Below are positions 5,076 to 59,666 of a DNA stretch of 64,000 bases, one piece after another. Location of the stretch: assembly GCF_018424695.1 (NCBI RefSeq), contig NZ_QTNQ01000001.1, positions 186,001-250,000 of the forward strand, in the 5' to 3' direction. Position 1 is the stretch's first letter. Each line of letters opens with the position of its first letter. The translations under genes and the position numbers were made by a program. This stretch comes from Vannielia litorea (lineage in GTDB: Bacteria > Pseudomonadota > Alphaproteobacteria > Rhodobacterales > Rhodobacteraceae). The notes beneath the pieces were generated by a model. The model made no database searches. It had not been told where the DNA came from and was given only the letters and a program-made list of their open reading frames with translations.

Positions 5076-5091
5076 ATCAGGAGGACAAACG

Positions 5092-6330: not shown

Positions 6331-6346
6331 AACAGGGAATAGAATT

Positions 6347-7513
6347 ATGGAAAACGTGATCGCCGCCGCTCAGGCAATCTATACAGACGAGCAACGCATG
6401 TTGCTGGAGAACTTCCGCAAGATGGCCGAGGCAGAGTTCGCTCCGCTGGCGGAGAAATACGAAGAGCTGGGCCACCCGCCCGACGCGGACACGTTGAAAT
6501 CATTGTTCGCCAAGGTCGAGGAATTTGGGCTGATCAGCGGCTTGATCCCCGAGAAAGACGGCGGTGCCGGAATCGACCGCATGACCTATGGCATCCTTTA
6601 CGAGGAACTGGCCCGGATATGGGCAGATCTGGCAATTGCGGTCCTGATCCAAGGCCACGCCGTGTTTGCGGTCAACCTTCTGGGAAATCCGGCGCAGAAA
6701 GAGGCCTATCTGAAGCCGCTCCTGCGCAGCGAACGGATCTGTGCCACCTGTATTTCCGAACCAGAGGTCGGCTCGAACGTGCGCGAGGTCAAAACCCGCG
6801 CAGACCGCGAGGGCGACAAGATTTTCGTCACCGGCCAGAAGCTCTGGATTTCCAATGGGGCCCAGTCGGATTTCGCCATCGTTGTCTGCAATCTGGACGA
6901 CGGTATTTCCATGGTCATCGTCGACCGTGACACCGGCGGATACGAAAGCCGCGAATTGCGCAAGCTGGGGCTTGTTGGTGCATCGACCTGCGAATTGTTT
7001 TTCGACCGGGCCGAAACCACTGCCGAACATGTTCTCGGTAGTGCAGGCGGGGGCCTGTTCCAGACTTTGAAGCTGTTTGAAAGCGCCCGCGTGTTTGTCG
7101 GCCTGACCAGCATTGGCATTGCCCAGGCAGCACTGGAATGTGCCGTCAAATATGCGCAGGAACGCGAACAGCACGGCAAGCCCATCGGCGGGCACCAGTT
7201 GATCCAGGGCTACCTGGCCGACATGGCCACGCACCTGGATGCAGCGCGCCTGTTGTGTCAGCGCGGCCTGCAGCTTCTGGATCTGGGCGTGCGGTGCGAC
7301 ACACAGACCTCGATGGCGAAATGGTATGCGACGGAAATGGCTGTCGAGATTGCCGGCAAGGCCGTCCAGATTCACGGCGGCAACGGCATCACCAAGGAGT
7401 TTCCCGTCGAACGGCACTTCCGCAATGCCAAGATCATGCCGATCCCGGACGGGACCACCGAGATCCAGAAACTGGTCATCGGGCGTAACCTGACCGGGCT
7501 GAACGCGTTCTGA
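6347..7513 (+). CDS. Acyl-CoA dehydrogenase
   Basis: A 388-residue FAD acyl-CoA dehydrogenase; ATG 6347 (MENVIAAAQ) follows an AGGGAATAGAATT leader. Conserved parts: CISEPEVGSN (substrate/FAD loop), TGQKLWISNG, QIHGGNGITKEFP and the C-terminal loop DGTTEIQK. At the usual SCAD/MCAD base position the Glu of EGT is Asp here, and the alternative LCAD/IVD-type Glu is not seen, so the Asp is the candidate base. It ends the hydratase-thiolase-ACAD operon and needs the ETF encoded at 20.5-22.2 kb or a paralogue as electron acceptor. Confidence 0.88.
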   Translation: MENVIAAAQAIYTDEQRMLLENFRKMAEAEFAPLAEKYEELGHPPDADTLKSLFAKVEEFGLISGLIPEKDGGAGIDRMTYGILYEELARIWADLAIAVLIQGHAVFAVNLLGNPAQKEAYLKPLLRSERICATCISEPEVGSNVREVKTRADREGDKIFVTGQKLWISNGAQSDFAIVVCNLDDGISMVIVDRDTGGYESRELRKLGLVGASTCELFFDRAETTAEHVLGSAGGGLFQTLKLFESARVFVGLTSIGIAQAALECAVKYAQEREQHGKPIGGHQLIQGYLADMATHLDAARLLCQRGLQLLDLGVRCDTQTSMAKWYATEMAVEIAGKAVQIHGGNGITKEFPVERHFRNAKIMPIPDGTTEIQKLVIGRNLTGLNAF

Positions 7514-7600: not shown

Positions 7601-8797
7601 TCAGCCGTCCTTATCGTTGACGATCAACTCGGCATTTTCCGGCAACTCCGCGACCACGCCCACCGCGTCGGCGCGGATTCTGGCCTGCAGTTTGAAGGCC
7701 TCGGCGGCGGCCTCTTCGGCAGCGGCCGTGTCGGCACCCTCATCCAGCACCAGCGAAAGCCGGATCATGTCGCGGTCGTTCTCGCGCGTCACAACGGCCT
7801 GTGCAGACTTGGCGCCGGGTGTCGCGATCACGACTTCCTCGATCACGCGGGGATAAACGAAGATCTCGCGCACCTTCACTGCCGCGCCCACCCGGCCCTG
7901 CAGGGCGGACAGGCGACTTACGCTTCCATCCGCGTTGCTTTCCAGCGCAAAGGCGCTGTCGCCGGTGCCGAACCGGATCATCGGCCAACCTGCATCGCGC
8001 GCGGTCACGACGACCTCGCCCGGCTCGCCCTGCGGCAGTTGTTCGCCGCTGACCGGATCGCAGATCTGCACCACGCGGTCGGGATGAACCACATAGCCTT
8101 CGCCGCCATCCTCATAGGCGACAAGGCCCAGATCCGCAGTGGCATAGGCAGCCCAGGTGGAGACGCCATAGTCGGCCTTGATTCGGCGGCGTTTGGCCAT
8201 CCAGTCACCCATCTCGCCACCAAGAAACGCGCTTTTCACCTTCCACGCGTCGCGGCCATAGGCTTCGATCACCTTATCCGCCAGCGTCAGGAAAAACGCG
8301 GTCGAGGCGCAGATCGAGGTCACGCCGGTTTCGACGATGATCTGTGCCTGAAGCTCGGTATTGCCGACCCCGCCGGGGATCACCGTGGCGCCCGCGGCCT
8401 GCGCCGCTTCATCGAACAGAAGCCCCGCAGGCACGAGGTGGTACATCCAGGTGTTCAGGATGACATCCCCCGGTCCCACGCCGGCCGCCTTGAACAGCAG
8501 GTCAAGACCGTGACCGCCACCGCCCGAAAGGGCCGGTTCGAAGATCGGGCCGGGCGACACGTAGATCCGCCCGACATCCTTCAGATCCGAGGCAAGGAAA
8601 CCGCCGAAAGGCGGGTTGTCGCGCTGGATCTTCAGAAGCTCTTCCTTCTTCATCACCGGAAGACGCGACAGGTCTGCCAGCGACGAAACAGCAGCCGGGT
8701 CGAATCCGGCAGCCGCAAACCGTGATTTCAGGCCCGCAGCCTTTTCAGCCGCGGCGGCATAGGCTTGCGCGATACCTTGATAGATGTTTTCGGACAT
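7601..8797 (-). CDS. Phenylacetate-CoA ligase-like AMP-forming ligase
   Basis: A 398-residue protein similar in layout to PaaK-type ligases: N-terminal domain with LPVMKKEEL, a central AMP-binding domain (LGGEMG, then AAYATADLGLVAYE) and a short C-terminal domain with PRVIEEV. Start 8797 is preferred to an ATG six bases upstream because AGGAGG then has a 7-base spacing. The usual Ser/Thr/Gly-rich phosphate loop is replaced by YVSPGPIFEP, so the nucleotide-binding loop is atypical. It is the last gene of the minus-strand operon with ACAD pair, hydratases and transglutaminase-like protein, and probably activates an aromatic or cyclic acid; the substrate is unknown. Confidence 0.75.
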   Translation of the reverse strand: MSENIYQGIAQAYAAAAEKAAGLKSRFAAAGFDPAAVSSLADLSRLPVMKKEELLKIQRDNPPFGGFLASDLKDVGRIYVSPGPIFEPALSGGGGHGLDLLFKAAGVGPGDVILNTWMYHLVPAGLLFDEAAQAAGATVIPGGVGNTELQAQIIVETGVTSICASTAFFLTLADKVIEAYGRDAWKVKSAFLGGEMGDWMAKRRRIKADYGVSTWAAYATADLGLVAYEDGGEGYVVHPDRVVQICDPVSGEQLPQGEPGEVVVTARDAGWPMIRFGTGDSAFALESNADGSVSRLSALQGRVGAAVKVREIFVYPRVIEEVVIATPGAKSAQAVVTRENDRDMIRLSLVLDEGADTAAAEEAAAEAFKLQARIRADAVGVVAELPENAELIVNDKDG

Positions 8798-8824
8798 GAC
8801 CATGCCTCCTTGACCGTTCGCCGC

Positions 8825-9634
8825 TTAAATCGGGCAATCCTTGCGGAAGTTCGGCGCGCGCTTCTCGCGGTGCGACAGCACGCCTTCCTTGACGTCGTCG
8901 CCCATGAAGCCGAGCATTTCCAGCGCGGTCGACGCATCGAAGATCGGGCCGGCCTGACGCAGCCAGTTGTTCAGCGAATACTTGGTCCAGCGGATCGCGC
9001 TTTGCGAGCCGTTGGCCAGCTCGACGGCCGTGTCCAGAGCGATCTGCTGCAGCTCGTCATCTTCAACGCACATCGACACAAGACCGATGCGCTCGGCCTC
9101 TTCGCCCGAAACCGGCTTGCAGGTCATCAGGTAGTATTTTGCCTTGGCCATCGAGGTCAGAAGCGGCCAGATGATCGCCGCAACATCACCGGCGGCAACC
9201 CCCAGGCGCGGGTGACCATCGACGATCTTGGCCCGCTTCCCGGCAATCGAGATGTCCGCGAGGATGCCGACAACCAGACCGGCGCCGGCCGCGGGGCCGT
9301 TGATCGCGGAAATGATCGGCTTGTTGCAGTTGATGATGTTGTAGACGAGGTCCTTGGCCTCTTTCCACGTCTTCATGATCTCGTGCGAATTGCCGATCAT
9401 GTTTTCGATCAGGCTGAAATCGCCGCCGGCAGAGAACGCCTTGCCCGCGCCGGTCACGATGACGGCGTTGATGTCCGGGTCACGGTCGATGTCGATCCAC
9501 ATATCCGTCATCTGGGTATGGGTTTCGGCATCCACCGAGTTGAAGCTCTCGGGCCGGTCGAACGTGATGCGCAGCACGCGATCCGCGGGATAGTCAAATT
9601 TCAGTTTGTCGTATTTTGCATAACGCTCCGACAT
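8825..9634 (-). CDS. Enoyl-CoA hydratase/isomerase family protein
   Basis: A 269-residue crotonase-fold protein with GGAGGAAAAGACCC before its ATG. It has FSAGGDF and [10 protein letters not shown], but neither crotonase Glu is at its usual place: the first position is Val (GAGLVV) and the second His (DGHPRLG). A conserved-looking Asp occurs in GVAAGDVAA. It may be an isomerase, a hydratase of a divergent subgroup, or a ring-modifying enzyme. It lies 27 bases after the ACAD gene and 27 bases before the ligase gene in one minus-strand operon. Confidence 0.82.
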
Positions 9635-9661
9635 GGGTCTTTTCCTCCGTAGGGTATGGGT

Positions 9662-10813
9662 TCAGCCTGGCAGTCCGAGAACGGCCTTGGACAGGATGTT
9701 TCGCTGGATTTCGTTCGATCCGCCGTAGATCGTGGTCGGCCTGGCCTTGTAGAAGCTCGCAAGGACATCGACACTTACGTTGCCGACCTGAAGCGGGCCG
9801 ACGGTGCCGCCATCGGGTCCGGCGGCCTCGATCATCAATTCGGTGATGCGCTGAAAGCACTCGGTCACCCAGATCTTGAGCATCGAGACATCCGCGCCCA
9901 GCGTTTCGCCTCGCTTCAGTTGGTCGGCGAAGCGGGCGTAAAGCGCGGCGTGATCCTCTACATCAAGCGCGGCCTGTGCAAAACGGTCACGGAATACCGG
10001 ATCGTCGAAAGCGCCACGGCCCCGGGCAAAGCTCTCAAGCTGACCCAGGGCGTTCTGGGCCAGGCTGGGCGCGCCGATGAAGATGCGCTCGAAGCTCAGG
10101 AGCGCCTTGGCCATGCTCCAGCCCTTGTTCAACTCGCCCACGAGGTTTTCGCGCGGCGTGCGGGCATTGTCGAAAAAGACCTCGCAAAACTCGGTTTCCC
10201 CGGAAAGCGTGGTGATCGTGCGCACCTCGACGCCGGGCTGATCCATCGGGGCCAGGACAAAGCTGATGCCCTGCTGTTTCCTGGGCGTGTCCGGTTCGGT
10301 GCGCACCAGCATGAAGATATGCGTGGCGTCATGCGCCATCGTGGTCCAGATCTTCTGCCCGTTTATGACGAACTCGTCGCCGTCAATCTCCGCGCGGGTG
10401 CGCAGGTTGGCCAGATCGGACCCGGCACCGGGTTCGGAATAGCCCTGGCACCAGATGTCCTCGCAACTGAGAATGCGCGGCAGCCAATAGTCCTTCTGTT
10501 CCTGGGTGCCAAACTTGATGATCAGCGGGCCGACCATCTGCACACCCATATCGCGCCCGCGATTGACACCCCAGCGTTGCTGTTCTTCGTAAAAGATCAA
10601 GAGTTTGGCGGCGTTCAGCCCCATGCCGCCATATTCCGCAGGCCAAGCCGGCGCGACCCAGCCTCTGGCGTGCAGCTTGCGGTGCCAGGGTTCGATCTCG
10701 CAAAATTTGGGTCGGTGCGGCAGGTGGCGCAGCTCCTCGGGGTACTCGGCCTCAAAAAAACCGCGCACTTCCTTGCGGAACTCCGCATCGCTCATTGCGT
10801 TCCAGTCGGTCAT
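9662..10813 (-). CDS. Acyl-CoA dehydrogenase, catalytic-type subunit of a pair
   Basis: A 383-residue acyl-CoA dehydrogenase. GYSEPGAGSD and GQKIWTTMAHDA mark the FAD/substrate region. The C-terminal loop is IYGGSNEIQRN, where Gly replaces the SCAD-type Glu, but LLSFERIFIG carries a Glu at the LCAD/IVD-type position, so this subunit can supply the base. Its ATG overlaps the stop of the upstream ACAD gene in ATGA. Adjacent ACADs, one with and one without a base, are typical of alpha2beta2 steroid-type dehydrogenases (FadE28/FadE29, ChsE). I infer the two form one enzyme acting on a bulky or branched side chain. Confidence 0.87.
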   Translation of the reverse strand: MTDWNAMSDAEFRKEVRGFFEAEYPEELRHLPHRPKFCEIEPWHRKLHARGWVAPAWPAEYGGMGLNAAKLLIFYEEQQRWGVNRGRDMGVQMVGPLIIKFGTQEQKDYWLPRILSCEDIWCQGYSEPGAGSDLANLRTRAEIDGDEFVINGQKIWTTMAHDATHIFMLVRTEPDTPRKQQGISFVLAPMDQPGVEVRTITTLSGETEFCEVFFDNARTPRENLVGELNKGWSMAKALLSFERIFIGAPSLAQNALGQLESFARGRGAFDDPVFRDRFAQAALDVEDHAALYARFADQLKRGETLGADVSMLKIWVTECFQRITELMIEAAGPDGGTVGPLQVGNVSVDVLASFYKARPTTIYGGSNEIQRNILSKAVLGLPG

Positions 10814-11937
10814 TGTGCGGCCCCCTCTTCTTCGCGCGCGTCGAACCAGGCCCGGCGGTGATAGGCGTCGTCGCCCAGCCAGGCCGACAGCACCAGCGCC
10901 CGGTTCATGTAAAGCCCGATATCGAACTCGTCGGTGTAGCCGACTGCCCCGTGCAGCTGGATGGCGTCGCGGGTGACTTTCCTTGCGGCGGTGACGGCCC
11001 GCGCCTTGGCCCGGCTGGCCAGCCTTGACCGGGTATTTGCGTCTGTTTCACCGTCCATCCGCGCCAGAACTTCGCGCACTCCGGCCTGGGCGACCTCGCA
11101 CATCACGTTAAGATCGACGGCACGGTGCTGGATGACCTGGAACGACCCGATCGGCTTGTCGAACTGCTCGCGCGTCTTGATGTAGTCGAGGGTAATCTCG
11201 AAGGCGCGTTGGCACAGGCCGACAAGCTCTGCCGCGGCAAGCGCCGTGGCATCGGCCACAGCCTCGGCCAGAGCATTCCGAACCGCGGCGCCGCTGGCCA
11301 GTTCCTCGGCCGGGGTTGCCGAGAACGAAAGCTCGCCCAGGGAACTGCCGTCGGCCTGCGCCCGCGTGTTCGTGACAAGCCCGGCCGCACCGACCTCGGC
11401 CAGAACCAGGACCGGGCCATCGTCACCTTCGGCCACAACAAGGAAACCCTGCGATCCCGCCGCGCCGACCACCCAGGCCTTGCCACCTGTCAGCTTGCCC
11501 TCCGCGTATCGGCAGGTCGCTTGGGCGGGCGCGCCGCCCGGGCCACGTTCCTGCCAGGCAACCGCCAGCGAAGCCTCGCCGCCGATGAGCTGGGCCAACT
11601 TCGGATGGTCCGGGCAAAGGCGGTGCAGAAGCCCGAGACCCAGACCGATCGTCGCCACCACCGGTTCCGGTGCGATTACGCGGCCGGCTTCCTCGGCGAT
11701 GACGCCGCCGGCGGCGAGGCCCATGCCAAGCCCCCCCTGGTCTTCGGGCACCGCCACGCCGAAAACACCGGCTTCGGCCAGTTCCCGGATCATATCCGGG
11801 TCAAATTCGCCCCCGGCATCGCGGAGTTTTCGCGCCCGTCCACTTCCGCCCGCTCGGTCAAACAGCGTGCGCGCGCTTTCACGCAGCAGGCGAAGGTCTT
11901 CTTCTTGTTCGCTGGATTGCATGTCAGTCTGTGTCAT
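10810..11937 (-). CDS. Acyl-CoA dehydrogenase, partner subunit without catalytic Glu
   Basis: A 375-residue ACAD-fold protein. It has FGVAVPEDQGGLGMG, YIKTREQFDKPIGSFQ and IQLHGAVGYTDEFD, but no recognisable Glu at either base position, and its end (ALVLSAWLGDD) differs from catalytic ACADs. This fits the non-catalytic, FAD-binding partner of heterotetrameric ACADs. It is upstream of and overlaps (ATGA) the catalytic-type gene, consistent with translational coupling of equal subunits. The start overlaps the MaoC stop by 14 bases; a second in-frame ATG at 11922 would avoid this, and neither has a clear ribosome site. Confidence 0.83.
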   Translation of the reverse strand: MTQTDMQSSEQEEDLRLLRESARTLFDRAGGSGRARKLRDAGGEFDPDMIRELAEAGVFGVAVPEDQGGLGMGLAAGGVIAEEAGRVIAPEPVVATIGLGLGLLHRLCPDHPKLAQLIGGEASLAVAWQERGPGGAPAQATCRYAEGKLTGGKAWVVGAAGSQGFLVVAEGDDGPVLVLAEVGAAGLVTNTRAQADGSSLGELSFSATPAEELASGAAVRNALAEAVADATALAAAELVGLCQRAFEITLDYIKTREQFDKPIGSFQVIQHRAVDLNVMCEVAQAGVREVLARMDGETDANTRSRLASRAKARAVTAARKVTRDAIQLHGAVGYTDEFDIGLYMNRALVLSAWLGDDAYHRRAWFDAREEEGAAQ

Positions 11938-12373
11938 TTTGTTTTCGCTGGATCATCACGGGGGTATCGGTTGAAAAAACCACCTCGCCGATCGGATTCT
12001 TGGCGCTGAGCGTATAGTGCAAGACACCCCTGTCGGGCTTGCTTTTGGACGGCGTCACCGAGTTGACCGTCATCTCAACATCAAGGGGTTCATCCGGGCG
12101 CACGGGCCGCAACCAGCGCAGATTGTCAAAGCCCAGACCGCCGATATTGGCAACATCGACCATCATCTCGGCCATGACCGGCCTGAACACCTCTAGCATC
12201 GTCTGAAACCCCGAGGCGATCAGGCTGCCATGGATGCTGGTCGCATAATCTTCGTCGATGTGCAGCCGCTGCGGGTCCCATTCCGTGGCGAATGCCTTTA
12301 TTGAATCCGCGCTCAACGGGGCGGTTCGGAAGCGATAGACCTGGCCCGGCGAGAAATCCTCCAGATACCTCAA
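11924..12373 (-). CDS. MaoC-like hot-dog hydratase
   Basis: A 149-residue single hot-dog domain protein. FATEWDPQRLHIDEDYA followed by GSLIASGF is the MaoC/hydratase-2 motif with its Asp and His. It should hydrate a trans-2-enoyl-CoA to the (R)-3-hydroxyacyl-CoA, probably the product of the adjacent ACAD pair. It overlaps both neighbours slightly (transglutaminase-like gene upstream, ACAD downstream), so it is tightly coupled. Its size resembles the small MaoC subunit of the igr hydratase (ChsH1), which is an analogy only. Confidence 0.83.
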   Translation of the reverse strand: MRYLEDFSPGQVYRFRTAPLSADSIKAFATEWDPQRLHIDEDYATSIHGSLIASGFQTMLEVFRPVMAEMMVDVANIGGLGFDNLRWLRPVRPDEPLDVEMTVNSVTPSKSKPDRGVLHYTLSAKNPIGEVVFSTDTPVMIQRKQNDTD

Positions 12374-13089
12374 GAGGAACCCTCCTTCGCGAATCCGGCA
12401 TCGTACCCGTTCGCATCCCTGGAAATCCGAATGCGGTTGAACTCTTCCAGTTTCGGGTAGGTTGCGCTGAAGGCGTTCAGGAACTCCTCAATCGGCGCAT
12501 CGAAATAGAGCCCCCGGTCGTTCACATATTCCATGTGGCGCTGGTCCTGTTCGTCGAATTCATGAAACAGGGCGTCGTGATAGCCGTCAAAGACCAGAGG
12601 CTTGACCCCGAACCTTTCGCACAGATCCATGTTGAAGGCAGGCGTGACCTTGTAAGGCTCTCCATCCAGCCACAACTGAACGTAGCCGTGATAGATGAAA
12701 AGATCGGTGCCCATCAGCTCCTGCAGCTTGGGTGTGTTCAGGTGGTTGCGCACATCCGCAAACCCCAATGCGGCGGGAATGCCGACGGCACGCAGACAGG
12801 CGGCAAGCAAGATCGCCTTGGGAACGCAAAAAGCCGCCTCTGCCCCGGCAATATGGCTTGCACGGTAGGAGTCTTCATCCAGCGCGAATGTGTATGGATC
12901 ATACCGGATGTCATCGCGGACCGCTTCGAACAGGCGGATCGCCTTGTCCCGCTTGGACGCATCCGGCGAGAGATCGCGCAAGGCCGTTGTCACAAACCCC
13001 TGCACTTCCAGGCTGTCGCTTTCGACATAATGCGATGGCATGACATAGCGTTCGGCTTCTGTCGGCAGGTCGTCATTGGGCTTGACCAT
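12370..13089 (-). CDS. Transglutaminase-like (papain-fold) protein of unknown role
   Basis: A 239-residue protein. ATG 13089 is chosen because GGAG lies 7 bases before it; the in-frame GTG upstream lies inside the operator. A Cys in AAFCVPKAILLAACLRAVG, His in IYHGYVQLWLDG and a later polar residue in TPAFNMD fit a transglutaminase-like Cys-His-Asp core. The protein has no signal peptide, so it should act in the cytoplasm. It is the first gene after the 13106-13121 palindrome and heads the operon with MaoC, ACAD pair, hydratase and ligase. Possible roles are hydrolysis or aminolysis of an amide or thioester; this is speculation. Confidence 0.7.
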   Translation of the reverse strand: MVKPNDDLPTEAERYVMPSHYVESDSLEVQGFVTTALRDLSPDASKRDKAIRLFEAVRDDIRYDPYTFALDEDSYRASHIAGAEAAFCVPKAILLAACLRAVGIPAALGFADVRNHLNTPKLQELMGTDLFIYHGYVQLWLDGEPYKVTPAFNMDLCERFGVKPLVFDGYHDALFHEFDEQDQRHMEYVNDRGLYFDAPIEEFLNAFSATYPKLEEFNRIRISRDANGYDAGFAKEGSS

Positions 13090-13105
13090 CGTGCATCTCC
13101 GTTTT

Positions 13106-13121
13106 TCTAACACCTGTTAGA
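13106..13121. promoter_or_regulatory. Palindromic operator, copy 1
   Basis: TCTAACACCTGTTAGA; one extra pair extends the arms to 7 bp. It lies 17 bases upstream of the transglutaminase-like start. The same arms with a 4-base spacer occur at 16767, 32990 and 35449. TetR-type regulators bind such sites; the regulator is not identified. Confidence 0.65.
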
Positions 13122-13153
13122 ATAGTGAGTCTCAACCAGCGCGTCAACCGGGT

Positions 13154-14290
13154 TTACTCTGTCTCAGGCTCGTCCAGCCCGTAACGCGCGTTGTCTTCGC
13201 CAAGGACGGCCGCACGCCCCGCCGAACTCGCCGGAGCGCGGAATGCCGGCGCGATTGGCAGCGGCAATGCGGGCGCCTCCTGTCCGGATATGTTCAGGGT
13301 CCGTCCGAATGCGCCGCGCGCGGTGAAATGCGCCTCGGTCGACGCCTCTGCGGGCGTTTTCACGACGGAACAACAACAATCGGCCGCCGCCAGCAAAGGC
13401 CCCCAATGGGTCGAGGGTTGCTCGCCCAAAAGGCGCGCGACTTCGGCGGCGCTGGCATCGGGGTCGGACCAGTCATCGCGAAGATCCTGCGGCAGGCCAA
13501 TAACATCGCAGAACGATTGCCAGAACTTTTCTTCCAACGCACCAACCGCAATCTGGCGCCCATCCGCAGCGGTATAGAGCCGATAACGGGCCAGCCCGCC
13601 GGTCAAACGGCCAGAGGCGTTTTCGATCTCTTGCCCCGCGATCACACCTTCCGCATGCGCCCAATAAGCAAAGGCAAACGCCCCTTCGGACATGGCGATA
13701 TCCAGATGCGTCCCCTTTCCGCTCTGTTGCCGCGCCATCAGCGCCAGCAGGATGTTGACGACCGCTGGATAGGTGCCGCCCCCGATGTCGGCGATCAGAC
13801 CGTATGGCATAGTCGGCTGTTCGTCCGGGCCCCGGCTCAGTGACAGGATACCCGCATCGCCCACGTAGTTGAGGTCATGACCGGCGGCGCTGGCCTTCGG
13901 TCCGGTCTGTCCGTAACCGGTAATCGAGCAGTAGATGAGGCCCGGATTGATCTCGCGGACGGTGTCGTATCCCAGCCCGAGCCTGTCCATCACACCGGGG
14001 CGAAACTGCTCTACCAGAACATCGGCCTTTTCAAGCAAAGGACGCAGAACTTCTATTGCGCCCTTTGACTTGAGGTCGATCGCCACCGACCGCTTGCCGT
14101 GATTCAGAACGGAGAAGCCAATGCTCTCACCGTCAATTTTCGGCGCGGTCAGGCGGGCGTCCTCGCCCGTGCCCGGGCGCTCGAACTTGATCACCTCGGC
14201 CCCAGCCTCTGACAGTATGAGCGTGGCCATCGGACCGGGAAGAAGGGTGCTGAAATCCAGCACCAGGATATCCTTGAGCGGTTGAGCCAT
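13154..14290 (-). CDS. Alpha-methylacyl-CoA racemase-like CaiB/BaiF protein
   Basis: A 378-residue protein. ATG 14290 (MAQPLKDIL) is favoured because GAGG lies 8 bases upstream; an in-frame GTG two codons earlier is the alternative. GPMATLILSEAGAEVIKFE and HGKRSVAIDL are family motifs. AAGHDLNYVG, LIADIGGG and VGALEEKFW align with the His, Asp and Glu used by alpha-methylacyl-CoA racemases, a better match than to CoA-transferases. Such an enzyme would epimerise a 2-methyl-branched acyl-CoA, as needed for a chain with a methyl branch. It is the last gene of the DUF35-thiolase-MaoC-racemase operon. Confidence 0.85.
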   Translation of the reverse strand: MAQPLKDILVLDFSTLLPGPMATLILSEAGAEVIKFERPGTGEDARLTAPKIDGESIGFSVLNHGKRSVAIDLKSKGAIEVLRPLLEKADVLVEQFRPGVMDRLGLGYDTVREINPGLIYCSITGYGQTGPKASAAGHDLNYVGDAGILSLSRGPDEQPTMPYGLIADIGGGTYPAVVNILLALMARQQSGKGTHLDIAMSEGAFAFAYWAHAEGVIAGQEIENASGRLTGGLARYRLYTAADGRQIAVGALEEKFWQSFCDVIGLPQDLRDDWSDPDASAAEVARLLGEQPSTHWGPLLAAADCCCSVVKTPAEASTEAHFTARGAFGRTLNISGQEAPALPLPIAPAFRAPASSAGRAAVLGEDNARYGLDEPETE

Positions 14291-14300
14291 CTTCACTACC

Positions 14301-15158
14301 TCAGGCGAAGCGTGCCGCGCCGTTGTTCAGAACCACCACATCGCGGGTCGGGATCGACGCGCGGAACCGGGCCTCGCCGTTCTCTTCCCAAATTTCGAAC
14401 CGCACGGTTTCGCCGGGATAGACCGGTGCCGAGAACCGGACATCCAGACCGACAAGCCGGGCGGCATCATAGTCGAGCAGCGTCTTGAGGATCGCCCGCG
14501 CCGCCAGCCCATAGGTCGCCAGACCATGCAGGATCGGGCGATCGAACCCGACCGAGCGGGCGACATCCGGATCGGCATGAAGCGGGTTATAGTCACCGCT
14601 GAGACGATAAATCAGCGCCTGGCGCGGCAGGGTGTCGATGTCGCAGACATGATCGGGCGCGCGATCAGGCAGCGCCGCCGGAGCCGGGCCGGGCCTGTTG
14701 TCGCCGCCAAAGCCGCCGTCGCCGCGGCAGAAGGCCGACATCGCCACGCGCGCCAACTTGTCGCCGGTGTCCGCGTCGACGATATCGCGGCTCTGGTAGA
14801 TGACGGCGCCCTTGCCCTCGCCCTTGTCCGAGATGAAGTCGATCTTGCTGCGGCCGACAATCCGGCCATGGGTCGGCAGCGGCTTGTAGATATCTAGCCA
14901 CTGTTCGCCGTGCAGCACTTTCTGCCAGTTCACGCCCGTCTTGGGATCGCGCAGCCAGAAGCCCGGATACCCCATGACGACAGCCATCGAGGGAACGGCC
15001 TTGAGCCCGTCCTCATAGACATAGGCCAGTTCCTTTTTGTCGGCCGGATCTTCGCCGAACCCAAGGCCGAGCGCATAAAGGATTGTATCCCGCTCGGTCA
15101 GCGTCTGTTCGACTTCCTCAAAATCCCAGTTCGATAGTGCATCGAAATCCAATGGCAT
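14301..15158 (-). CDS. MaoC / hydratase-2 family dehydratase, two hot-dog domains
   Basis: A 285-residue protein of the peroxisomal multifunctional hydratase-2 type. The N-terminal half is a degenerate hot-dog domain (HGEQWLDIYKPLP), and the C-terminal half has the full motif SGDYNPLHADPDVARSVGF followed by ILHGLATYG. The start has GGGAGGAAAGTAA upstream. It should hydrate 2-enoyl-CoAs, including bulky or branched ones. It lies between the thiolase-like and racemase-like genes, so hydration followed by aldol-type cleavage is a consistent order for the operon. Confidence 0.87.
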   Translation of the reverse strand: MPLDFDALSNWDFEEVEQTLTERDTILYALGLGFGEDPADKKELAYVYEDGLKAVPSMAVVMGYPGFWLRDPKTGVNWQKVLHGEQWLDIYKPLPTHGRIVGRSKIDFISDKGEGKGAVIYQSRDIVDADTGDKLARVAMSAFCRGDGGFGGDNRPGPAPAALPDRAPDHVCDIDTLPRQALIYRLSGDYNPLHADPDVARSVGFDRPILHGLATYGLAARAILKTLLDYDAARLVGLDVRFSAPVYPGETVRFEIWEENGEARFRASIPTRDVVVLNNGAARFA

Positions 15159-15181
15159 TTACTTTCCTCCCTTAGTTGCCG

Positions 15182-16333
15182 TCAGAGCGTGTTTTGCGAC
15201 CCCAGAATGGCCGTGACCTGGCTGGACAGCACACCGCCGTTGCCATGCGCCAGCGCCAGGTCGATATCGTTCAACTGAATGCCCGGCGCGTCGCCCCGAA
15301 TCTGACGCGCGGCCTCGATCACGGTAAAGATGCCGTACATGCCGGGGTGCACACAGGACAGGCCCCCGCCGTTGGTGTTCACCGGCAAGGCCCCGCCCGG
15401 CGCGATACGCCCGTCCCCGACAAAGGCCCCGCCCTCGCCCTTGGCGCAAAAGCCGAGATCTTCCAGAAACAGGATCGTGTTGATGGTAAACGCATCGTAA
15501 AGCTCGACCGCCTGAATGTCCGAAGACGACACGCCCGCCGCGGCAAAGGCGCGTACGCCGGATTCGCGGGCGGCCGTCACGGTGAAATCCTTCATCTGCG
15601 AGATTTGCCGGTGCGAGCTTTCCGCCGCGCTGCCCAGGACGTAAACTGGCGCCTTGGGGAAGTCGCGTGCGCGCTCGGCGCGCACCATTACGATCGCCCC
15701 GCCGCCATCGGTGACCAGACAGCAATCGCGCACAGTCAGCGGATCACCCACCATGCGCGCGCCCAGCACGTCCTCGCGGCTGAGCGGGCCGCGCTCGAAC
15801 GCCTCGGGGTTGGCCTGCGCCCAGGCTCGCGCGGCCACCGCCACATCGGCCAGATTTTCACGGGTGGTGCCATATTCATGCATGTGCCGTGCCGCCGCCA
15901 TCGCATAGGCGGAAATCGGATAGCGCGGATTATATGGCGCCTCATAGGCGGGCGGACGCGAGGCCGTCACCAGCCTGCCCGACGCCGTGCGCTGGTTGGA
16001 GCCATAAACGATCAGCGCCACGTCACACAAACCTGCCTCCAGCGCCATGGTGGCGGAGGTCAGGTAATTCACGAAGGACGATCCGCCCGTCATGGTGCCG
16101 TCGATGAACCGGGGCTGAATACCCAGATATTCAGCCGCCATCAGCGCCGGCATGCTGTCTTCCATCATGGTGCAGAACAGACCATCCACATCTGACAGCT
16201 TCAGCCCCGCATCGCCAAGTGCCGCAAGCGCGGATTGCGCCATGACATCATAGGCGGTCAGCCCATGCGCCTCGCCAAACCCTGCGTGGCCGGTGCCCAC
16301 AATGGCGGATTTTCCCCGAAGTTCAGTGGTCAT
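15182..16333 (-). CDS. Thiolase-like protein lacking the nucleophilic Cys (Ltp2-like aldolase candidate)
   Basis: A 383-residue thiolase-fold protein with GGAGGGATAAGCC before the ATG. Where thiolases have Cys, it has Gly and Ser (GTMTGGSSFVNYL). It keeps YDAFTINTILFLEDLG and a late CVHPG segment. Loss of the Cys together with an adjacent DUF35 gene is the hallmark of side-chain retro-aldolases such as Ltp2-ChsH2(DUF35). I infer C-C cleavage of a tertiary 3-hydroxyacyl-CoA rather than thiolysis. It is 3 bases after the DUF35 stop. A non-catalytic lipid-transfer-like role is the alternative. Confidence 0.8.
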   Translation of the reverse strand: MTTELRGKSAIVGTGHAGFGEAHGLTAYDVMAQSALAALGDAGLKLSDVDGLFCTMMEDSMPALMAAEYLGIQPRFIDGTMTGGSSFVNYLTSATMALEAGLCDVALIVYGSNQRTASGRLVTASRPPAYEAPYNPRYPISAYAMAAARHMHEYGTTRENLADVAVAARAWAQANPEAFERGPLSREDVLGARMVGDPLTVRDCCLVTDGGGAIVMVRAERARDFPKAPVYVLGSAAESSHRQISQMKDFTVTAARESGVRAFAAAGVSSSDIQAVELYDAFTINTILFLEDLGFCAKGEGGAFVGDGRIAPGGALPVNTNGGGLSCVHPGMYGIFTVIEAARQIRGDAPGIQLNDIDLALAHGNGGVLSSQVTAILGSQNTL

Positions 16334-16336
16334 GGC

Positions 16337-16714
16337 TTATCCCTCCGACGGCTTGAAAAGTACGGCGGGGGCGCCCTCGGCCTCGCCCACGAAAGCGGTC
16401 ACGGCCATGTCGATGGTGACATCACCCGGGGCGATGCCCTCGACCCGGCTCATCATCCGGACACCTTCCTCCAGCTCGACCATGCAAATATTATAGTCGC
16501 CGCCGCGCTCGGGTTTGCGGCGCACGACCGTGGTGGTATGAACCCGGCCCTTGCCGCTGGCCTGCGACCACGAAATCGCGGTGCCATGGCAATGCGGGCA
16601 CAGGATTCTGGGAAAGAAGTGATAGGCCCCGCAATCATCGCATCTGGGCAGCACGATCTCTCCCATTGCCAGCGCGTTCTGGAATATCTGGTCTGGTCCT
16701 GTGGCATCCGGCAC
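16337..16714 (-). CDS. DUF35 / OB-fold zinc-ribbon acyl-CoA-associated protein
   Basis: A 125-residue protein. The start is taken as GTG 16714 because AGGAG has a 7-base spacing to it; a TTG five codons upstream is less likely. CDDCGAYHFFPRILCPHC is the CxxC-x(n)-CxxC rubredoxin-like zinc ribbon of DUF35, followed by an OB-fold with GRVHTTTVVRR. DUF35 proteins partner thiolase-like enzymes, and the next gene is one. It is the first gene of a four-gene operon and is divergent from the CoA-transferase gene at 16819, with an operator between them. Confidence 0.82.
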   Translation of the reverse strand: MPDATGPDQIFQNALAMGEIVLPRCDDCGAYHFFPRILCPHCHGTAISWSQASGKGRVHTTTVVRRKPERGGDYNICMVELEEGVRMMSRVEGIAPGDVTIDMAVTAFVGEAEGAPAVLFKPSEG

Positions 16715-16766
16715 CGGCGTTCTCCTCAAAATGTCTCAGTCACTGGTCAAGCGTGTTGCCAATATT

Positions 16767-16782
16767 TCTAACATTTGTTAGA
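16767..16782. promoter_or_regulatory. Palindromic operator, copy 2 (divergent promoter)
   Basis: TCTAACATTTGTTAGA, 6-bp perfect arms. It lies in the 104-base gap between the DUF35 operon (minus) and the CaiB-CaiB operon (plus), so one protein could control both directions. Confidence 0.65.
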
Positions 16783-16818
16783 TTTAGTCAAGCGCCCAGG
16801 ATCATCTGCGAGAAACTC

Positions 16819-17964
16819 ATGTCAGGTTCAGACTTAACCCCCCTTTCCGGCAAGCTCGTCGTCACGCTCGAACAGGCGGTGGCGGCACCCTTTTGCTCTT
16901 CGCGGCTGGCCGATGCCGGCGCGCGTGTGATTAAAATCGAACGCAAGGGCACGGGGGATTTCGCGCGCGCCTACGATACCGCCGCCAATGGCGAAAGCGC
17001 CTATTTCACATGGCTGAACCGGGGAAAAGAATCGGTCGCGCTGGATATCAAGGCGGACGAGGACCGGGAAGTCTTGCTCAGGATGCTCAAAAACGCGGAT
17101 GTGTTTATTCAGAACCTGCTGCCGGGCGCGCTGGCCAAGCTCGGGCTCGACTCCGCGACCCTGCGAGAAAGGTTCCCGCGCCTGGTGACCTGCGACATCA
17201 CCGGATACGGCGAAGACGGCCCGATGCGCAATGCCAAGGCCTACGACCTTCTGGTGCAATGCGAAAGCGGTCTGGCATCGGTGACGGGCACGCCAGACGG
17301 ACCGGGGCGGGTTGGCGTGTCGGTCTGTGACATCGCAACCGGCATGGCAGCCCATGCCGGGATCTGCGAAGCGCTCGTCGGGCGCGACCGCACCGGCAGG
17401 GGCAGCGGCGTTTCGGTGGCCATGTTCGACGTGATGGCCGACTGGATGTCGGTTCCGCTGCTCTATCACGATTACCTTGGCAAGGAGACGCCACGTGTCG
17501 GGCTGAACCACACGGTTATCTGCCCCTACGGGGCCTACCCGTGCAAGGACGGTGAGCTGGTCGTCGTTGCCGTGCAGCACAGCGGCGAATGGCAGCGGTT
17601 TTGCGAACACATACTGGGCGACGCAACACTGGCATCGGACCCGCGATTTCATGACAACACATCGCGCCTGAACAACAAGCCCGCGCTGGAGGCGCTGATC
17701 AAGGCGGAGTTCGCCGCGCATGAGCGTGCCGGAATGCTGAAACGGCTCGATGCTGCGGGCATTGCCTCCGGTGCCGTGAACGACGTGGCGACCCTGTCCG
17801 CGCACCCGCAGCTTGACAGGTCCGCCATTGCCACGCCCTCTGGCGAAATCAATGTCCCGACGCCCCCGATCCGGCGCAGCGGCGGTGAGGCGACGCTTGG
17901 CCCCTGCCCTGCCTTTGATGCGGAAGGCAAAGCTCTGCGCGCCGAATTCGGGCCGCGTTCATAA
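16819..17964 (+). CDS. Family III CoA-transferase (CaiB/BaiF)
   Basis: A 381-residue protein beginning MSGSDLTPLSGKLVV; the frame continues upstream, but this ATG gives the family start and lies after the operator. RGKESVALDIK, ITGYGEDGP and YDLLVQCESGL are present, with the catalytic Asp in SVCDIATGM. It lacks the GHD motif of racemases, so CoA transfer between acids is expected. It is the first gene of a two-gene plus-strand operon with a second CaiB protein 18 bases downstream. Confidence 0.86.
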   Translation: MSGSDLTPLSGKLVVTLEQAVAAPFCSSRLADAGARVIKIERKGTGDFARAYDTAANGESAYFTWLNRGKESVALDIKADEDREVLLRMLKNADVFIQNLLPGALAKLGLDSATLRERFPRLVTCDITGYGEDGPMRNAKAYDLLVQCESGLASVTGTPDGPGRVGVSVCDIATGMAAHAGICEALVGRDRTGRGSGVSVAMFDVMADWMSVPLLYHDYLGKETPRVGLNHTVICPYGAYPCKDGELVVVAVQHSGEWQRFCEHILGDATLASDPRFHDNTSRLNNKPALEALIKAEFAAHERAGMLKRLDAAGIASGAVNDVATLSAHPQLDRSAIATPSGEINVPTPPIRRSGGEATLGPCPAFDAEGKALRAEFGPRS

Positions 17965-17982
17965 CAAAGGTTACGGAAATTA

Positions 17983-19149
17983 ATGACCGCAGCAAAAAAG
18001 CCCGCGATCCTTGACGGCGTGAAGGTCGTCGATCTGACTTCGGTGGTCTTCGGACCTTTGGCCACGCAAATGCTGGGCGATCTGGGGGCCGATGTGATCA
18101 AGGTCGAAGGCCCTGAGGGCGATCTTCTTCGCCAGGTCCAGCCCTCCCGCAGCAAGCTGATGGGCGCGGCCTTCCTGGGCACCAACCGCAACAAGCGCAG
18201 TGTTGTGCTCGACCTGAAAACGCAAACCGGCCGCGACCGGCTGCGCAAGCTTCTCTCGGATGCCGATGTGATGATTTCAAGCATCCGGCCCGCCGCACTT
18301 GCGCGCCTTTCGCTTGATCCCGAAACCCTGCGTCACGAGAACCCAAAGCTGATCACGGTCTCGGCCACCGGCTTCGGGCAGGACGGACCCTATGCCGCCA
18401 AGCCCGCCTTTGACGATTCCGTCCAGTCGGTTTCGGGTCTGGCCGGCCTAGCAACATTGCGTGACCCCGAGGCTCCGCCCGCCTATGCCCCGACGATCCT
18501 CGCCGACAAGCTCGGCGGCGTGACAGCTGCCTACGCCGTCATGGCGGCCCTTTTCCACCGCGAGCGCACGGGCGAAGCCCAGCATGTCGAGGTTCCGATG
18601 TTCGAAACGCTGGCCTCCTTTCTGATGGTCGAGCATCTGGACGGCGCCACTTTCGAAGAAACCCCGCGGGATTTCGGCTATGCAAGGATGCTGGTTCCGC
18701 ACAGGCGCCCGGTTCAGACGGCGGACGGCTACATCACGATTCTGCCCTACACCAACGTCCAGTGGGCGCGGTTCTTCATGGCGGTCGGGCGCGACGACAT
18801 GATTGACCACATCTGGGTCACCGACATGGATGCGCGCAGCCGCAACATCGGCGCGGTATACGATATGGTGGCGCAGATTGCCCTGACCCGGACAACGGAT
18901 GACTGGCTTGCCCTGATGGAGCAGGCCGACATCCCCGCCATGCCAGTGAACAACCTGTCGGATTTGCCCAGCGACCCCCATCTTGCCGCGACCGGGTTCT
19001 TTCAGCAGATCGATCACCCGAGCGAAGGCGCCATCTGGACAACACGCCCGCCGATCCGGTTCTCGGCAACACCGGCGCGGCATGACCACCGCCCTGCCCC
19101 CGGACTGGGAGAGCACGACGAAGAGATCTTCGGACCGGGCGGGGAATAA
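17983..19149 (+). CDS. Family III CoA-transferase (CaiB/BaiF)
   Basis: A 388-residue protein with FGPLATQMLGDLGADVIKVE, RNKRSVVLDL, TGFGQDGPYA and the candidate catalytic Asp in ILADKLGGV. The GHD racemase motif is absent (PAFDDSVQS). It is probably a CoA-transferase activating the growth substrate with CoA from an intermediate. Two adjacent, divergent CaiB genes may make a heteromeric transferase, or each may have its own substrate. It is convergent with the ACAD gene at 19171; a short ACCCGG/CCGGGT hairpin lies between them. Confidence 0.86.
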   Translation: MTAAKKPAILDGVKVVDLTSVVFGPLATQMLGDLGADVIKVEGPEGDLLRQVQPSRSKLMGAAFLGTNRNKRSVVLDLKTQTGRDRLRKLLSDADVMISSIRPAALARLSLDPETLRHENPKLITVSATGFGQDGPYAAKPAFDDSVQSVSGLAGLATLRDPEAPPAYAPTILADKLGGVTAAYAVMAALFHRERTGEAQHVEVPMFETLASFLMVEHLDGATFEETPRDFGYARMLVPHRRPVQTADGYITILPYTNVQWARFFMAVGRDDMIDHIWVTDMDARSRNIGAVYDMVAQIALTRTTDDWLALMEQADIPAMPVNNLSDLPSDPHLAATGFFQQIDHPSEGAIWTTRPPIRFSATPARHDHRPAPGLGEHDEEIFGPGGE

Positions 19150-19170: not shown

Positions 19171-20328
19171 TCACACATCCATCGAACGTGCGATCAGTTC
19201 CTTCATGATCTCGTTCGTGCCGCCATAGATCATCTGAACACGGCTGTCGGCATAAAGCCGCGCGATCGGATATTCCATCATGAAGCCATAGCCGCCATGC
19301 AGTTGCAGACATTCATGCATGACCTCGTTCTGCGTCTGGCTGCCCCACCACTTTGCCATCGAGGCCGTGGCCGCATCAAGCTCGCCCGCTTCCAGCCGTG
19401 CGATCCCGTCATTGACGAAACTGCGCAGCAATTCGGCCTTGGTCTTGCATTCCGCCAGCTTGAACCTTGTGTTCTGGAAATCCATGATCCGGCTGCCGAA
19501 CGCCTTGCGGTCCTGCACGTATTTCACGGTTTCGGCGATGGCAAAGTCGATGAAGCCTAGCGCGGTGATGCCGATCATCAGCCGCTCCCATGGCAGTTGC
19601 TTCATCAGCTGATAAAACCCCTGCCCCTCTTCCGGGCCGAGCAGGTTCGCCGTCGGCACGCGCACGTCCTCGAAGAACAGCTCCGCCGTGTCCGACCCCT
19701 TCATGCCCAGTTTCTTCAGGTTGCGCCCCCGGCGAAAGCCCTCGGCATCTTCGGTTTCCAGAACGATCAGCGAAACACCCTTGGCGCCGGCGCCCCGGTC
19801 GGTTTTTGCCACGACGATCACCAGATCGGCGGTGTGCCCATTGGTAATGAAGTTCTTCGACCCGTTGATCCTGTAATGGTTGCCGTCCTTCTCCGCATGG
19901 GTCTGGACGTTCTGAAGGTCAGAGCCGGTTCCCGGCTCGGTCATCGCGATGGCCGCGACACGGTCGCCGCTGACCAGCTTCGGCAGCCACTTTTTCTTCT
20001 GCTCTTCGCTGCCATAGGCGTCGATGTAATGGATCACGATGGACTGGATGCCATAGCCCCACCCCATGTCTCCGGTACGCCCTTGTTCGTAAACGGTAAT
20101 CGCATCGAACCCGATACCGCCGCCGAACCCGCCATAGTCTTCGGCGATCGAGCCCCCCATGATGCCCTGCTGTCCGGCGGACTTCCAGAACTCGCGGTCC
20201 ACGATCCCCTGCTCGGCCCATTTTTCGATATTCGGGGCCATTTCGGCATCAAAAAGCTTGCGCGTGCTATCCGCAAATATCTTGTGTTCATCCGCCGCCC
20301 AACCAGGCGAGTTCTTGATCAGAGACAT
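19171..20328 (-). CDS. Acyl-CoA dehydrogenase, LCAD/IVD type
   Basis: A 385-residue ACAD with AMTEPGTGSDL, GSKNFITNG, ECLQLHGGYGFMMEYP and the end loop IYGGTNEIMKEL. The SCAD-type Glu is Gly, while LPWERLMIG holds the Glu used as base in LCAD and isovaleryl-CoA dehydrogenases. Its length and motifs fit long-chain or branched acyl-CoAs. It is a single minus-strand gene with AGGTAAGAAAC before its ATG. A degraded copy of the island operator (20367-20382) lies 38 bases upstream. Confidence 0.88.
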   Translation of the reverse strand: MSLIKNSPGWAADEHKIFADSTRKLFDAEMAPNIEKWAEQGIVDREFWKSAGQQGIMGGSIAEDYGGFGGGIGFDAITVYEQGRTGDMGWGYGIQSIVIHYIDAYGSEEQKKKWLPKLVSGDRVAAIAMTEPGTGSDLQNVQTHAEKDGNHYRINGSKNFITNGHTADLVIVVAKTDRGAGAKGVSLIVLETEDAEGFRRGRNLKKLGMKGSDTAELFFEDVRVPTANLLGPEEGQGFYQLMKQLPWERLMIGITALGFIDFAIAETVKYVQDRKAFGSRIMDFQNTRFKLAECKTKAELLRSFVNDGIARLEAGELDAATASMAKWWGSQTQNEVMHECLQLHGGYGFMMEYPIARLYADSRVQMIYGGTNEIMKELIARSMDV

Positions 20329-28445: not shown

Positions 28446-28448
28446 GCC

Positions 28449-32989: not shown

Positions 32990-33005
32990 TCTAACGCGTG
33001 TTAGA
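32990..33005. promoter_or_regulatory. Palindromic operator, copy 3
   Basis: TCTAACGCGTGTTAGA, 6-bp perfect arms, upstream of the SDR-livGHMF operon and downstream of the ACAD gene ending at 33055. It is the only gap over 100 bases in this stretch, so a promoter is likely here. Confidence 0.65.
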
Positions 33006-35435: not shown

Positions 35436-35477
35436 TCTTCGCTAATAATCTAACATCCGTTAGATTATTAGCGAAGA
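35436..35477. promoter_or_regulatory. Operator copy 4 inside a perfect 42-bp palindrome
   Basis: The core TCTAACATCCGTTAGA is at 35449-35464. The symmetry extends outwards to perfect 19-bp arms around the 4-base spacer ATCC, far longer than the other copies. It lies just upstream of the CaiB start at 35429. It could act as an operator, or as a hairpin in a transcript coming from either side. Confidence 0.65.
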
Positions 35478-38716: not shown

Positions 38717-38749
38717 AGATCCTTTTCCGCCTATCCCAGGAGCACGGGG

Positions 38750-40457: not shown

Positions 40458-40575
40458 GTTGACTTTCAGGTAGTCTGGGGTTCCATCAAGGTCAAGCGTT
40501 CAATCGAATCCGACCCGGGTGGCTCACCATGACGCCCGCAGACCATGCGAAGCCAAGCGGTTGAGCGCCCCCGCT

Positions 40576-41172: not shown

Positions 41173-41380
41173 ATCGATCACCTGATTCCAATACGTGATA
41201 CCGAACGCATAGCTCCACCTGTCTGGCCGCGCTTAACGGCATCCGGCGTTTCCATCACCTGTCTTCGGCAAAAAACGAGCTTTCGCTGTGCAACTCATAC
41301 ACACAATCGGGTACACACAATCGGGGCGACGCGACCTCGCCGAAAGCTTTCTCACCCGGATGTTCTTTGGGCCGGCGCAG

Positions 41381-50184: not shown

Positions 50185-50211
50185 CTGCGGTCTATGACGC
50201 GGTACACGACA

Positions 50212-52145: not shown

Positions 52146-52148
52146 CGC

Positions 52149-53033: not shown

Positions 53034-53110
53034 GCCACAACACTATCTCGCGGCGGCGCTTTTGACTACCACATAGTGTAGAAACCGCCCCTCTTTGCCA
53101 AGCCTTTCTG

Positions 53111-53137: not shown

Positions 53138-53159
53138 TATTTGAAGTAAGCTCCATAGC

Positions 53160-53187: not shown

Positions 53188-53202
53188 CATGTCGCTTTAG
53201 TT

Positions 53203-59606: not shown

Positions 59607-59645
59607 GTGCCGTCCTCCTTTCTGCTCGTTGCCTCCACTCTGACG

Positions 59646-59661: not shown

Positions 59662-59666
59662 CGCCG

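Follow-up and report, generated by a model that had tools for sequence, protein, structure and literature searches.

The genes at positions 9662–16714 of a 64,000-nucleotide stretch of DNA from Vannielia litorea (the window) raise the question of what a set of enzymes resembling the steroid side-chain cleavage operon igr is for in a bacterium in which no steroid-ring genes had been seen. The original prediction, made from this stretch alone, was of an igr-like set of dehydrogenase, hydratase and aldolase that may act on some other branched or cyclic acid. The module is real, conserved and informative. Its two transcription units probably make up a single oxidation–hydration–retro-aldol module for an alpha-methyl or otherwise branched acyl-CoA, the most likely substrate being a branched or alicyclic acid of terpenoid or naphthenic type and not a steroid.

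Eight intact genes, all on the minus strand, lie in two transcription units. The first unit encodes, in order of transcription, a 125-residue DUF35 protein with zf-ChsH2 and OB_ChsH2_C domains (16337–16714; Pfam PF12172 and PF01796), a thiolase-fold protein predicted to be a retro-aldolase (15182–16333), a 285-residue MFE-2-type MaoC hydratase-2 with the motif DYNPLH (14301–15158; PF22622 and PF01575) and a CoA-transferase III of the alpha-methylacyl-CoA racemase type (13154–14290). The second opens with a 239-residue transglutaminase-like protein (12370–13089; Pfam PF01841), followed by a single-hotdog MaoC protein of 149 residues (11924–12373; PF01575) and the small (10810–11937) and large (9662–10813) subunits of a heteromeric acyl-CoA dehydrogenase (ACAD) pair. 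It then runs on, also on the minus strand, through a crotonase (8825–9634; PRK07327 at 422.7 bits, cut-off 292; 21–27 nt from its neighbours) to end with a 400-residue PaaK-like acyl-CoA ligase (7601–8803; TIGR02155 at 113 bits, cut-off 646). Within the units the genes overlap or are at most 27 nt apart, and 64 nt separate the racemase from the transglutaminase-like gene. The parts originally named, an ACAD pair, two MaoC proteins, a thiolase-fold protein, a DUF35 protein and an added racemase, are all present and intact, whereas the transglutaminase-like gene and the continuation of the second unit to 7601 had been overlooked.

The thiolase-fold protein matches PRK06158 at 638 bits and PRK07855 at 241. 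A fold search with its model (predicted local distance difference test score, pLDDT, 82.5) returned 4u4e, the Sal–Shy structure 9myr and two Ltp2–ChsH2 chains of 6ok1 as the first four entries of the Protein Data Bank (PDB), above every thiolase listed. As had been noticed at the outset, Gly and Ser stand in place of the thiolase Cys: the sequence GGSSF occupies the nucleophile region, where a true thiolase encoded close by (5092–6330) carries Cys, a Tyr replaces the His of the thiolase HDxF motif, Ala281 lies where the XDCX motif has its Cys in Sal and in SCP2 thiolases, and there is no Pfam match to Thiolase_N. Lacking the nucleophilic Cys, the protein was rejected as a true thiolase. In the available part of the study of the bile acid aldolase Sal–Shy (PMC12329534), Ltp2 is described as using Tyr294 of a YDHF motif as base together with Tyr344, and Sal as using Tyr302 and Cys304 of YDCY, with Gln352 where Ltp2 has Tyr344; mutation has shown the Tyr of this motif to be catalytic in Sal. 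The present protein has a YDAF motif with Tyr279, and at the Ltp2 Tyr344 position His329, which is equal to the His of the thiolase GHP motif. By alignment with these enzymes Tyr279 is likely to be the base, and we propose His329 as the likely acid or proton donor.

Tyr279 and His329 are kept in 81 of 81 sequences (80 loci from a pattern-seeded search and the window), a count biased by the presence of the motifs in two of the six search seeds. When the search was run without pattern seeding, YD[AS]F and the His were found in 28 of the 29 loci examined out of 48 non-self places listed, the remaining one being of Sal type, and the Tyr of the YDxF motif was kept in all 29. By the same search (E up to 1e-60) such proteins occur in 28 of 299 genomes of the phylum, a figure that includes the genome itself and the one Sal-type match. 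Seven of the 29 are distant members with GGCSF, in which a Cys adjoins the thiolase nucleophile column. In a phylogenetic tree the protein groups with Ltp2 and Sal against three Cys-type thiolases with support of 100/99; the branches are long and the order among the aldolase groups is unsettled. The DUF35 gene directly adjoins the thiolase-like gene, its product has a zinc ribbon of the form C-x2-C-x10-C-x2-C with 9myr_B and 6ok1_B as its nearest PDB entries, and a DUF35 match was found in 63 of 64 more distant loci. Fold, Tyr and partner gene fit the prediction that the two proteins together are a retro-aldolase by mechanism.

A reading in which the thiolase-fold protein catalyses some other C–C reaction or serves as a scaffold, with cleavage left to the true thiolase at 5092–6330, is improbable. 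In its favour are the Cys-bearing enzyme in the unit next door, the equivalence of His329 to the thiolase GHP His, and the fact that a literature search found neither an activity nor a substrate for any PRK06158-type protein. It is opposed by the complete conservation of the YDxF Tyr in both searches, this residue being catalytic in Sal and the base in Ltp2 according to the part of PMC12329534 cited above, by the adjacent DUF35 gene and by the grouping with Ltp2 and Sal, long branches notwithstanding.

Among the remaining enzymes of the module, the ACAD genes overlap by 4 nt and form an adjacent heteromeric pair of the ChsE1–E2 type, closest to Tcur3481 and Tcur3483, the solved heteromeric ACAD of T. 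curvata, which we take to act on steroids. The small subunit matches Tcur3481 (6wy8_A) at 129 bits, the next entry scoring 82, and the large subunit matches Tcur3483 (6wy9_A/6wy8_B) at 188 bits, followed by 4x28_A at 169. The best PDB matches of the two MaoC proteins are the MFE2-type 1s9c (189 bits, for the 285-residue protein) and 3exz (79 bits, for the 149-residue protein), and no ChsH structure was among the PDB matches listed for either. The racemase is borne out by its best PDB match, the alpha-methylacyl-CoA racemase (MCR) of M. tuberculosis (1x74, 198 bits), and by conservation of H126, D156 and E241 in the motifs GHDLNY, ADIGGG and GALEEKF; we take His126, Asp156 and Glu241 to be the catalytic residues of MCR. 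The transglutaminase-like protein gave a poor model (pLDDT 56.9) whose best folds were the Cys protease 3isr, an arylamine N-acetyltransferase and a transglutaminase (best E 0.004), matches that support a superfamily assignment only. Relatives of this protein (42–58% identity) occur in many alphaproteobacterial genomes, and the family also lies beside acyl-CoA genes in other contexts (loci L128, L133, L134 and L137), once by another DUF35–thiolase-like pair.

Compared with the igr system of M. tuberculosis (ChsE1–E2, ChsH1–H2 and Ltp2), the module shares a heteromeric ACAD pair, MaoC hydratases, a thiolase-fold protein, DUF35 and the predicted order of reactions. It differs in that the MaoC and DUF35 parts fused in ChsH2 are here separate, with a stand-alone DUF35 protein and MaoC proteins of other types, and in that YDAF with His329 replaces the YDHF and Tyr344 of Ltp2 and marks another aldolase subfamily. 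The racemase and the transglutaminase-like gene are additions, the genes are divided between two units that share an operator, and the genome has no KstD candidate. An igr-type module comprising ORF40–44 is known in C. testosteroni from the accessible portion of another report (PMC12502768). With Sal–Shy of C. testosteroni the fold, the DUF35 gene partner and the catalytic Tyr of the YDxx motif are shared; as far as the available text of PMC12329534 goes, Sal–Shy differs in having a Cys in YDCY where the present protein has Ala, Gln352 in place of His329, and a Cys3His1 zinc site where the present partner has C4. The nearest relative by both sequence (362 bits) and fold (50% identity) is 4u4e, an uncharacterised thiolase-like protein of Sphaerobacter thermophilus with YDSF and the His. 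The originally proposed dehydrogenase–hydratase–aldolase logic is upheld, its parts being found under one operator, and the individual identities are not: the subfamily and active site exclude Ltp2, the MaoC proteins lack both a ChsH match among those listed and a DUF35 fusion, and orthology to either Ltp2 or Sal was rejected on the active-site residues. The module is igr-like in its working and stands outside the igr/Ltp2 family by the features tested. A second DUF35-like/thiolase-like pair was seen elsewhere in the genome on a 5.3-kb contig (C49:71–4572, L029), its thiolase-like protein 56% identical to that of the module, followed by apparent short-chain dehydrogenase/reductase (SDR), MaoC and ACAD genes.

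That the two units belong together is indicated by the operator TCTAACN4GTTAGA, which precedes both of them. The sites are TCTAACACCTGTTAGA (13106–13121) before the second unit, TCTAACATTTGTTAGA (16767–16782) between the first unit and a divergent pair of CoA-transferase genes, TCTAACGCGTGTTAGA (32990–33005) before an SDR–ABC–ligase unit and TCTAACATCCGTTAGA (35449–35464) before a CoA-transferase–ACAD unit. In a scripted search of the first 40 kb (arms of 6 or 7, gaps of 0–6) this was the sole perfect inverted repeat seen at least three times. With up to two mismatches allowed the window holds four sites, all exact, against 0.41 expected, and none of 100 shuffles reached four. The whole genome (4.74 Mb in 231 contigs, 99.99% complete) holds six exact sites, all within 66 kb of contig C111 (155309–221464), and no site for a reversed control pattern. 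The earlier claim of two neighbouring same-strand operons behind one operator was confirmed at both promoters and in relatives: both operators are present in all 15 loci that reach both promoters (14 exact, and one mismatch each in the Ferrovibrio locus L042), on which ground the idea of two unrelated operons was rejected. The candidate regulator is probably a tandem TetR protein (C111:153932–155728; L026:13932–15728), whose single frame carries two TetR_N and two TetR_C_24 stretches. The exact operator at C111:155309 lies between its inferred start and a divergent SDR gene, although the listed TetR frame opens further upstream. This protein would repress the module along with the other genes of a putative regulon spanning 66 kb of the plasmid; six sites cannot by themselves prove regulation of every intervening gene. 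RepC and RepA/ParA genes near the end of the window indicate a RepABC plasmid.

The 11.5-kb block from 7601 to 19149, which comprises both units and the divergent CoA-transferases, has matches in 50 plasmid records, 33 of which cover at least 80% of it; the best place shows 80–95% identity in 40 of the 50, and Pseudosulfitobacter (21) and Sulfitobacter (7) are the commonest carriers. From a search of genome contigs 80 of 585 relatives of the thiolase-like protein were kept. Sixteen of these loci have at least 85% identity, and 14 of the 16 hold all 12 genes of the block, including in every case the transglutaminase-like gene; the exceptions are L038, a 4.5-kb contig, and L042, which is without several genes. 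No exact operator was found in the 1.2 Mb of the 64 more distant loci, where 11 sites turn up when as many as two mismatches are allowed. The transglutaminase-like gene (at least 75% identity), used as an island marker, was found in 9 of 295 genomes from the family, V. litorea included. A 49.6-kb stretch of a plasmid of Phaeobacter sp. G2 has similar gene content with five exact operators and one with two mismatches. Marinovum algicola DG 898 and Roseovarius indicus are further marine carriers. Locus L042, from a Ferrovibrio metagenome-assembled genome (MAG), retains the thiolase-like, DUF35, transglutaminase-like, ACAD pair, crotonase and PaaK-like genes and both operators, while no MFE2-type MaoC, racemase, small MaoC or CoA-transferase of the block was detected in it. 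An island copy on a 1.4-Mb contig (L136, G569 C1:548000–567000), in which the thiolase-like protein, DUF35 and the first CoA-transferase were not detected, the racemase was matched as two overlapping pieces and the MaoC is shortened, is perhaps decaying.

In the pathway that we propose, the racemase would set the stereocentre at the alpha-methyl group, the heteromeric ACAD pair would form the alpha,beta-enoyl-CoA and one or both MaoC proteins (MFE2-type and 149-residue) would hydrate it; the resulting beta-hydroxyacyl-CoA may be a tertiary alcohol, which the usual beta-oxidation route could not oxidise. The thiolase-fold/DUF35 pair would then carry out a retro-aldol cleavage, Tyr279 acting as base and His329 probably donating the proton, to give a ketone or aldehyde together with propionyl- or acetyl-CoA. 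Gene content, homology, the common operator, conservation and the lack of a KstD candidate are observed, and the reactions, the roles of the residues, the repression, the size of the regulon and the class of substrate are inferred from them. Removal of a propionyl unit as first put forward is unsupported in that form; release of propionyl-CoA is suggested here by the racemase.

Evidence on the substrate comes from the other genes between the operator sites. These include an AliB-like ACAD (TIGR03207 at 519 bits, cut-off 575, four other island ACADs scoring 149–215), an HMG-CoA lyase and a protein of the citryl-CoA lyase family with a Citrate_synt domain, both above cut-off, a carboxylase of methylcrotonyl-CoA carboxylase (MCC) type, an old yellow enzyme (OYE)-like flavoenzyme, a PaaK-like ligase, FadD11-like ligases accompanying ATP-binding cassette (ABC) importer genes, and a number of crotonases, CoA-transferases and ACADs. 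The combination of an aldolase, an HMG-CoA lyase and a citryl-CoA-lyase-like protein would be in keeping with a substrate in which beta-carbons tend to be fully substituted. There was no P450 match on C111 and no Rieske match between the operator sites (seven Rieske matches in the genome, one of them on C111 at 83 kb, outside the operator span), this search being confined to those two oxygenase families.

The strongest sign of one shared pathway is the clustering of plasmid genes from several units in a distant group. In two Rhodoferax MAG loci (L058 and L072) and a Pseudomonadota MAG locus (L061), 13–15 homologues of island proteins at 48–69% identity lie within about 20 kb. The L072 contig (Rhodoferax ferrireducens isolate OTU1) has, from 25.4 to 81.1 kb, 31 predicted genes with plasmid matches at 40–75%, by our own count with one overlapping ORF omitted; the matches are to 26 different plasmid genes, and best matches in large families (ABC, ACAD) need not be orthologues. 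The cluster contains a transglutaminase-like gene, two thiolase-like genes, a TetR and a ligase whose best family is cyclohexanecarboxylate-CoA ligase (AliA-like; 677 bits, cut-off 792, next 450). Together the AliB- and AliA-like proteins suggest a ring. At the cluster edge on a Rhodoferax contig (L146:2514–4644) a B12-dependent acyl-CoA mutase pair, with a large subunit and a small B12-binding one, was also seen, which could rearrange branched acyl-CoAs.

The ali/bad and pim pathways share with this system an AliB-like ACAD, an AliA-like ligase (in the Rhodoferax cluster), a PimC/PimD-like ACAD pair and an ABC importer of branched-chain type. They differ in that the scores here fall under the equivalog cut-offs, no BadI-type hydrolase was among the matches listed and an aldolase and lyases are additional; a simple cyclohexanecarboxylate pathway was rejected on the first two counts. 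The monoterpene island (mrc) of Castellaniella defragrans, compared by description only, resembles the plasmid island in its size of 70 kb, many acyl-CoA enzymes, a MaoC pair, dienoyl-CoA reductases, RND efflux and a cyclic acid substrate. The available part of that account (PMC4109377) has degradation of cyclic monoterpenes independent of oxygen and the ring hydrolysed by MrcE, and makes no mention of a DUF35/thiolase-like aldolase. Among the papers listed by the literature searches none was recognised as describing the present cluster, and they did not reveal its substrate. Pseudomonas PA1016 and PA1020–1022 presumably represent a locus homologous to the cluster. They are tabulated among the genes altered by cis-2-decenoic acid (PMC4412052, in part), and in P. 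fluorescens Pf-5 detection of two ACADs, a 3-hydroxyacyl-CoA dehydrogenase and two carboxylase subunits was confined to commercial naphthenic acids (an extract of PMC8289671). Both findings are too indirect to use.

While none is proven, we rank an alicyclic or terpenoid acid first among substrates, an acyclic isoprenoid acid second and a steroid third. An acyclic acid derived from phytol or pristane, or of the citronellyl type, would call on racemase and aldolase for its 2-methyl and on carboxylase and HMG-CoA lyase for its 3-methyl branches. This is rather unlikely, but it draws on the racemase, on the MCC-type carboxylase and the HMG-CoA lyase between the operator sites, on an AtuA cluster of the same plasmid (C111:142.6–150 kb) and on carriers from algal cultures and oil-production water. 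Against it, the AtuA cluster is without an operator copy, the AliB- and AliA-like proteins point to rings, and the carboxylase beta subunit matches AccD1 (625 bits) and MCC (3u9r, 603) better than geranyl-CoA carboxylase (420), the enzyme expected of an acyclic terpene (atu) pathway, and identity with the latter was rejected.

The least probable of the alternatives is that the module shortens a steroid or bile-acid side chain, the compound being only partly degraded or its rings being broken down by other organisms. The ACAD pair, DUF35 and the aldolase-like protein do resemble structures of steroid enzymes, the OYE-like protein matches BaiCD (377 bits, cut-off 825), and 11 of 13 other carriers have further strong, unclassified FAD_binding_2 proteins. 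However, a steroid side chain needs no carboxylase, HMG-CoA lyase, citryl-CoA lyase or AliB-like ACAD, and the aldolase active site is of neither Ltp2 nor Sal type. The early observation that KstD is missing holds genome-wide: among 27 PF00890 matches only two exceed 40 bits, and these are SdhA- and NadB-like as judged by eye from sequence and neighbours. By our own reading the strong FAD_binding_2 matches of two carriers (G002 and G008) are likewise only SdhA- or NadB-like. In a partial check for HsaC the best TIGR03213 score was 104.7 bits (cut-off 366). The suggestion of a non-steroid substrate is probably correct.

Several points weigh against a single retro-aldol pathway for a branched or alicyclic acid. 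The pLDDT of the thiolase-like model falls below 50 exactly at residues 325–332, around His329, and the Cys-bearing thiolase in the unit next door makes ordinary thiolysis also available. The AliB- and AliA-like scores lie under their equivalog cut-offs, the NCBIfam matches listed for the scanned crotonases include no BadI-type ring hydrolase, and the carboxylase matches a chain named as propionyl-CoA carboxylase (9tps, 598 bits) nearly as well as MCC. The contact between TetR and operator is a candidate interaction. Among the Rhodoferax matches, three concern plasmid genes at C111:134–139 kb, outside the operator span, and the operator, sought with the single pattern TAACN4GTTA, was not found in one 20-kb Rhodoferax piece. 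The racemase, transglutaminase-like protein, small MaoC and PaaK-like ligase were undetected in three Rhodoferax-type loci and so may lie outside the aldolase core; a 49% transglutaminase-like homologue is present elsewhere on the larger Rhodoferax contig.

The thiolase-fold aldolases that we found described in the literature act on steroid side chains, and among the papers listed no description of this active-site combination outside the steroid aldolases was found. A broader proposal, that the Tyr of the aldolases combined with the thiolase GHP His defines a third active-site class of thiolase-fold aldolases, widespread in Pseudomonadota and outside steroid catabolism, and that in V. litorea it serves a plasmid-borne 66-kb regulon with three kinds of C–C lyase and no oxygenase seen, breaking branched or fused alicyclic acids (terpenoid, naphthenic or resembling carboxyl-rich alicyclic molecules) and cutting at fully substituted beta-carbons with no beta-keto group formed, is tentative and has somewhat less than an even chance. 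A conserved plasmid-borne module of this sort, in a genome with no KstD candidate, would extend aldolase chemistry to other recalcitrant branched and ring acids of marine and oil-affected water. The defined operator, residues and carrier strains make substrate and mechanism directly testable.

Further genes of the island surround the module. Divergent from the aldolase unit, on the plus strand, lie two CoA-transferase III genes at 16819–17964 (start inferred, scanned from 16801; NF052585 at 243 bits, cut-off 750) and 17983–19149, followed on the minus strand by an ACAD gene (19171–20328). On the other side a plus-strand unit (4287–7513) encodes a crotonase, the Cys-bearing thiolase and an ACAD. 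Also on the minus strand are a FadD11-like ligase (29337–31256; 275 bits, cut-off 950) inside the ABC importer unit (27372–32055) and, behind the operator at 35449, an ACAD (33055–34221) and a CoA-transferase III (34218–35429; together 33055–35429). Just past this last operator unit (35627–41181) are an RND efflux pump gene, a probable adaptor gene and an AefR-type TetR, and an RND gene is similarly placed on the Phaeobacter sp. G2 plasmid. The AtuA-type cluster (C111:142597–150146, L026) comprises AtuA with a ferredoxin-like domain, carboxylase alpha and beta subunits and an ACAD. Towards the end of the window (48113–57000 and 58098–61822) IS21-type (IstB), TniB and Mu-type transposase genes stand beside RepC and RepA/ParA, as befits a transposon-laden RepABC plasmid, and a ScpB-like gene lies at 51546–52145.

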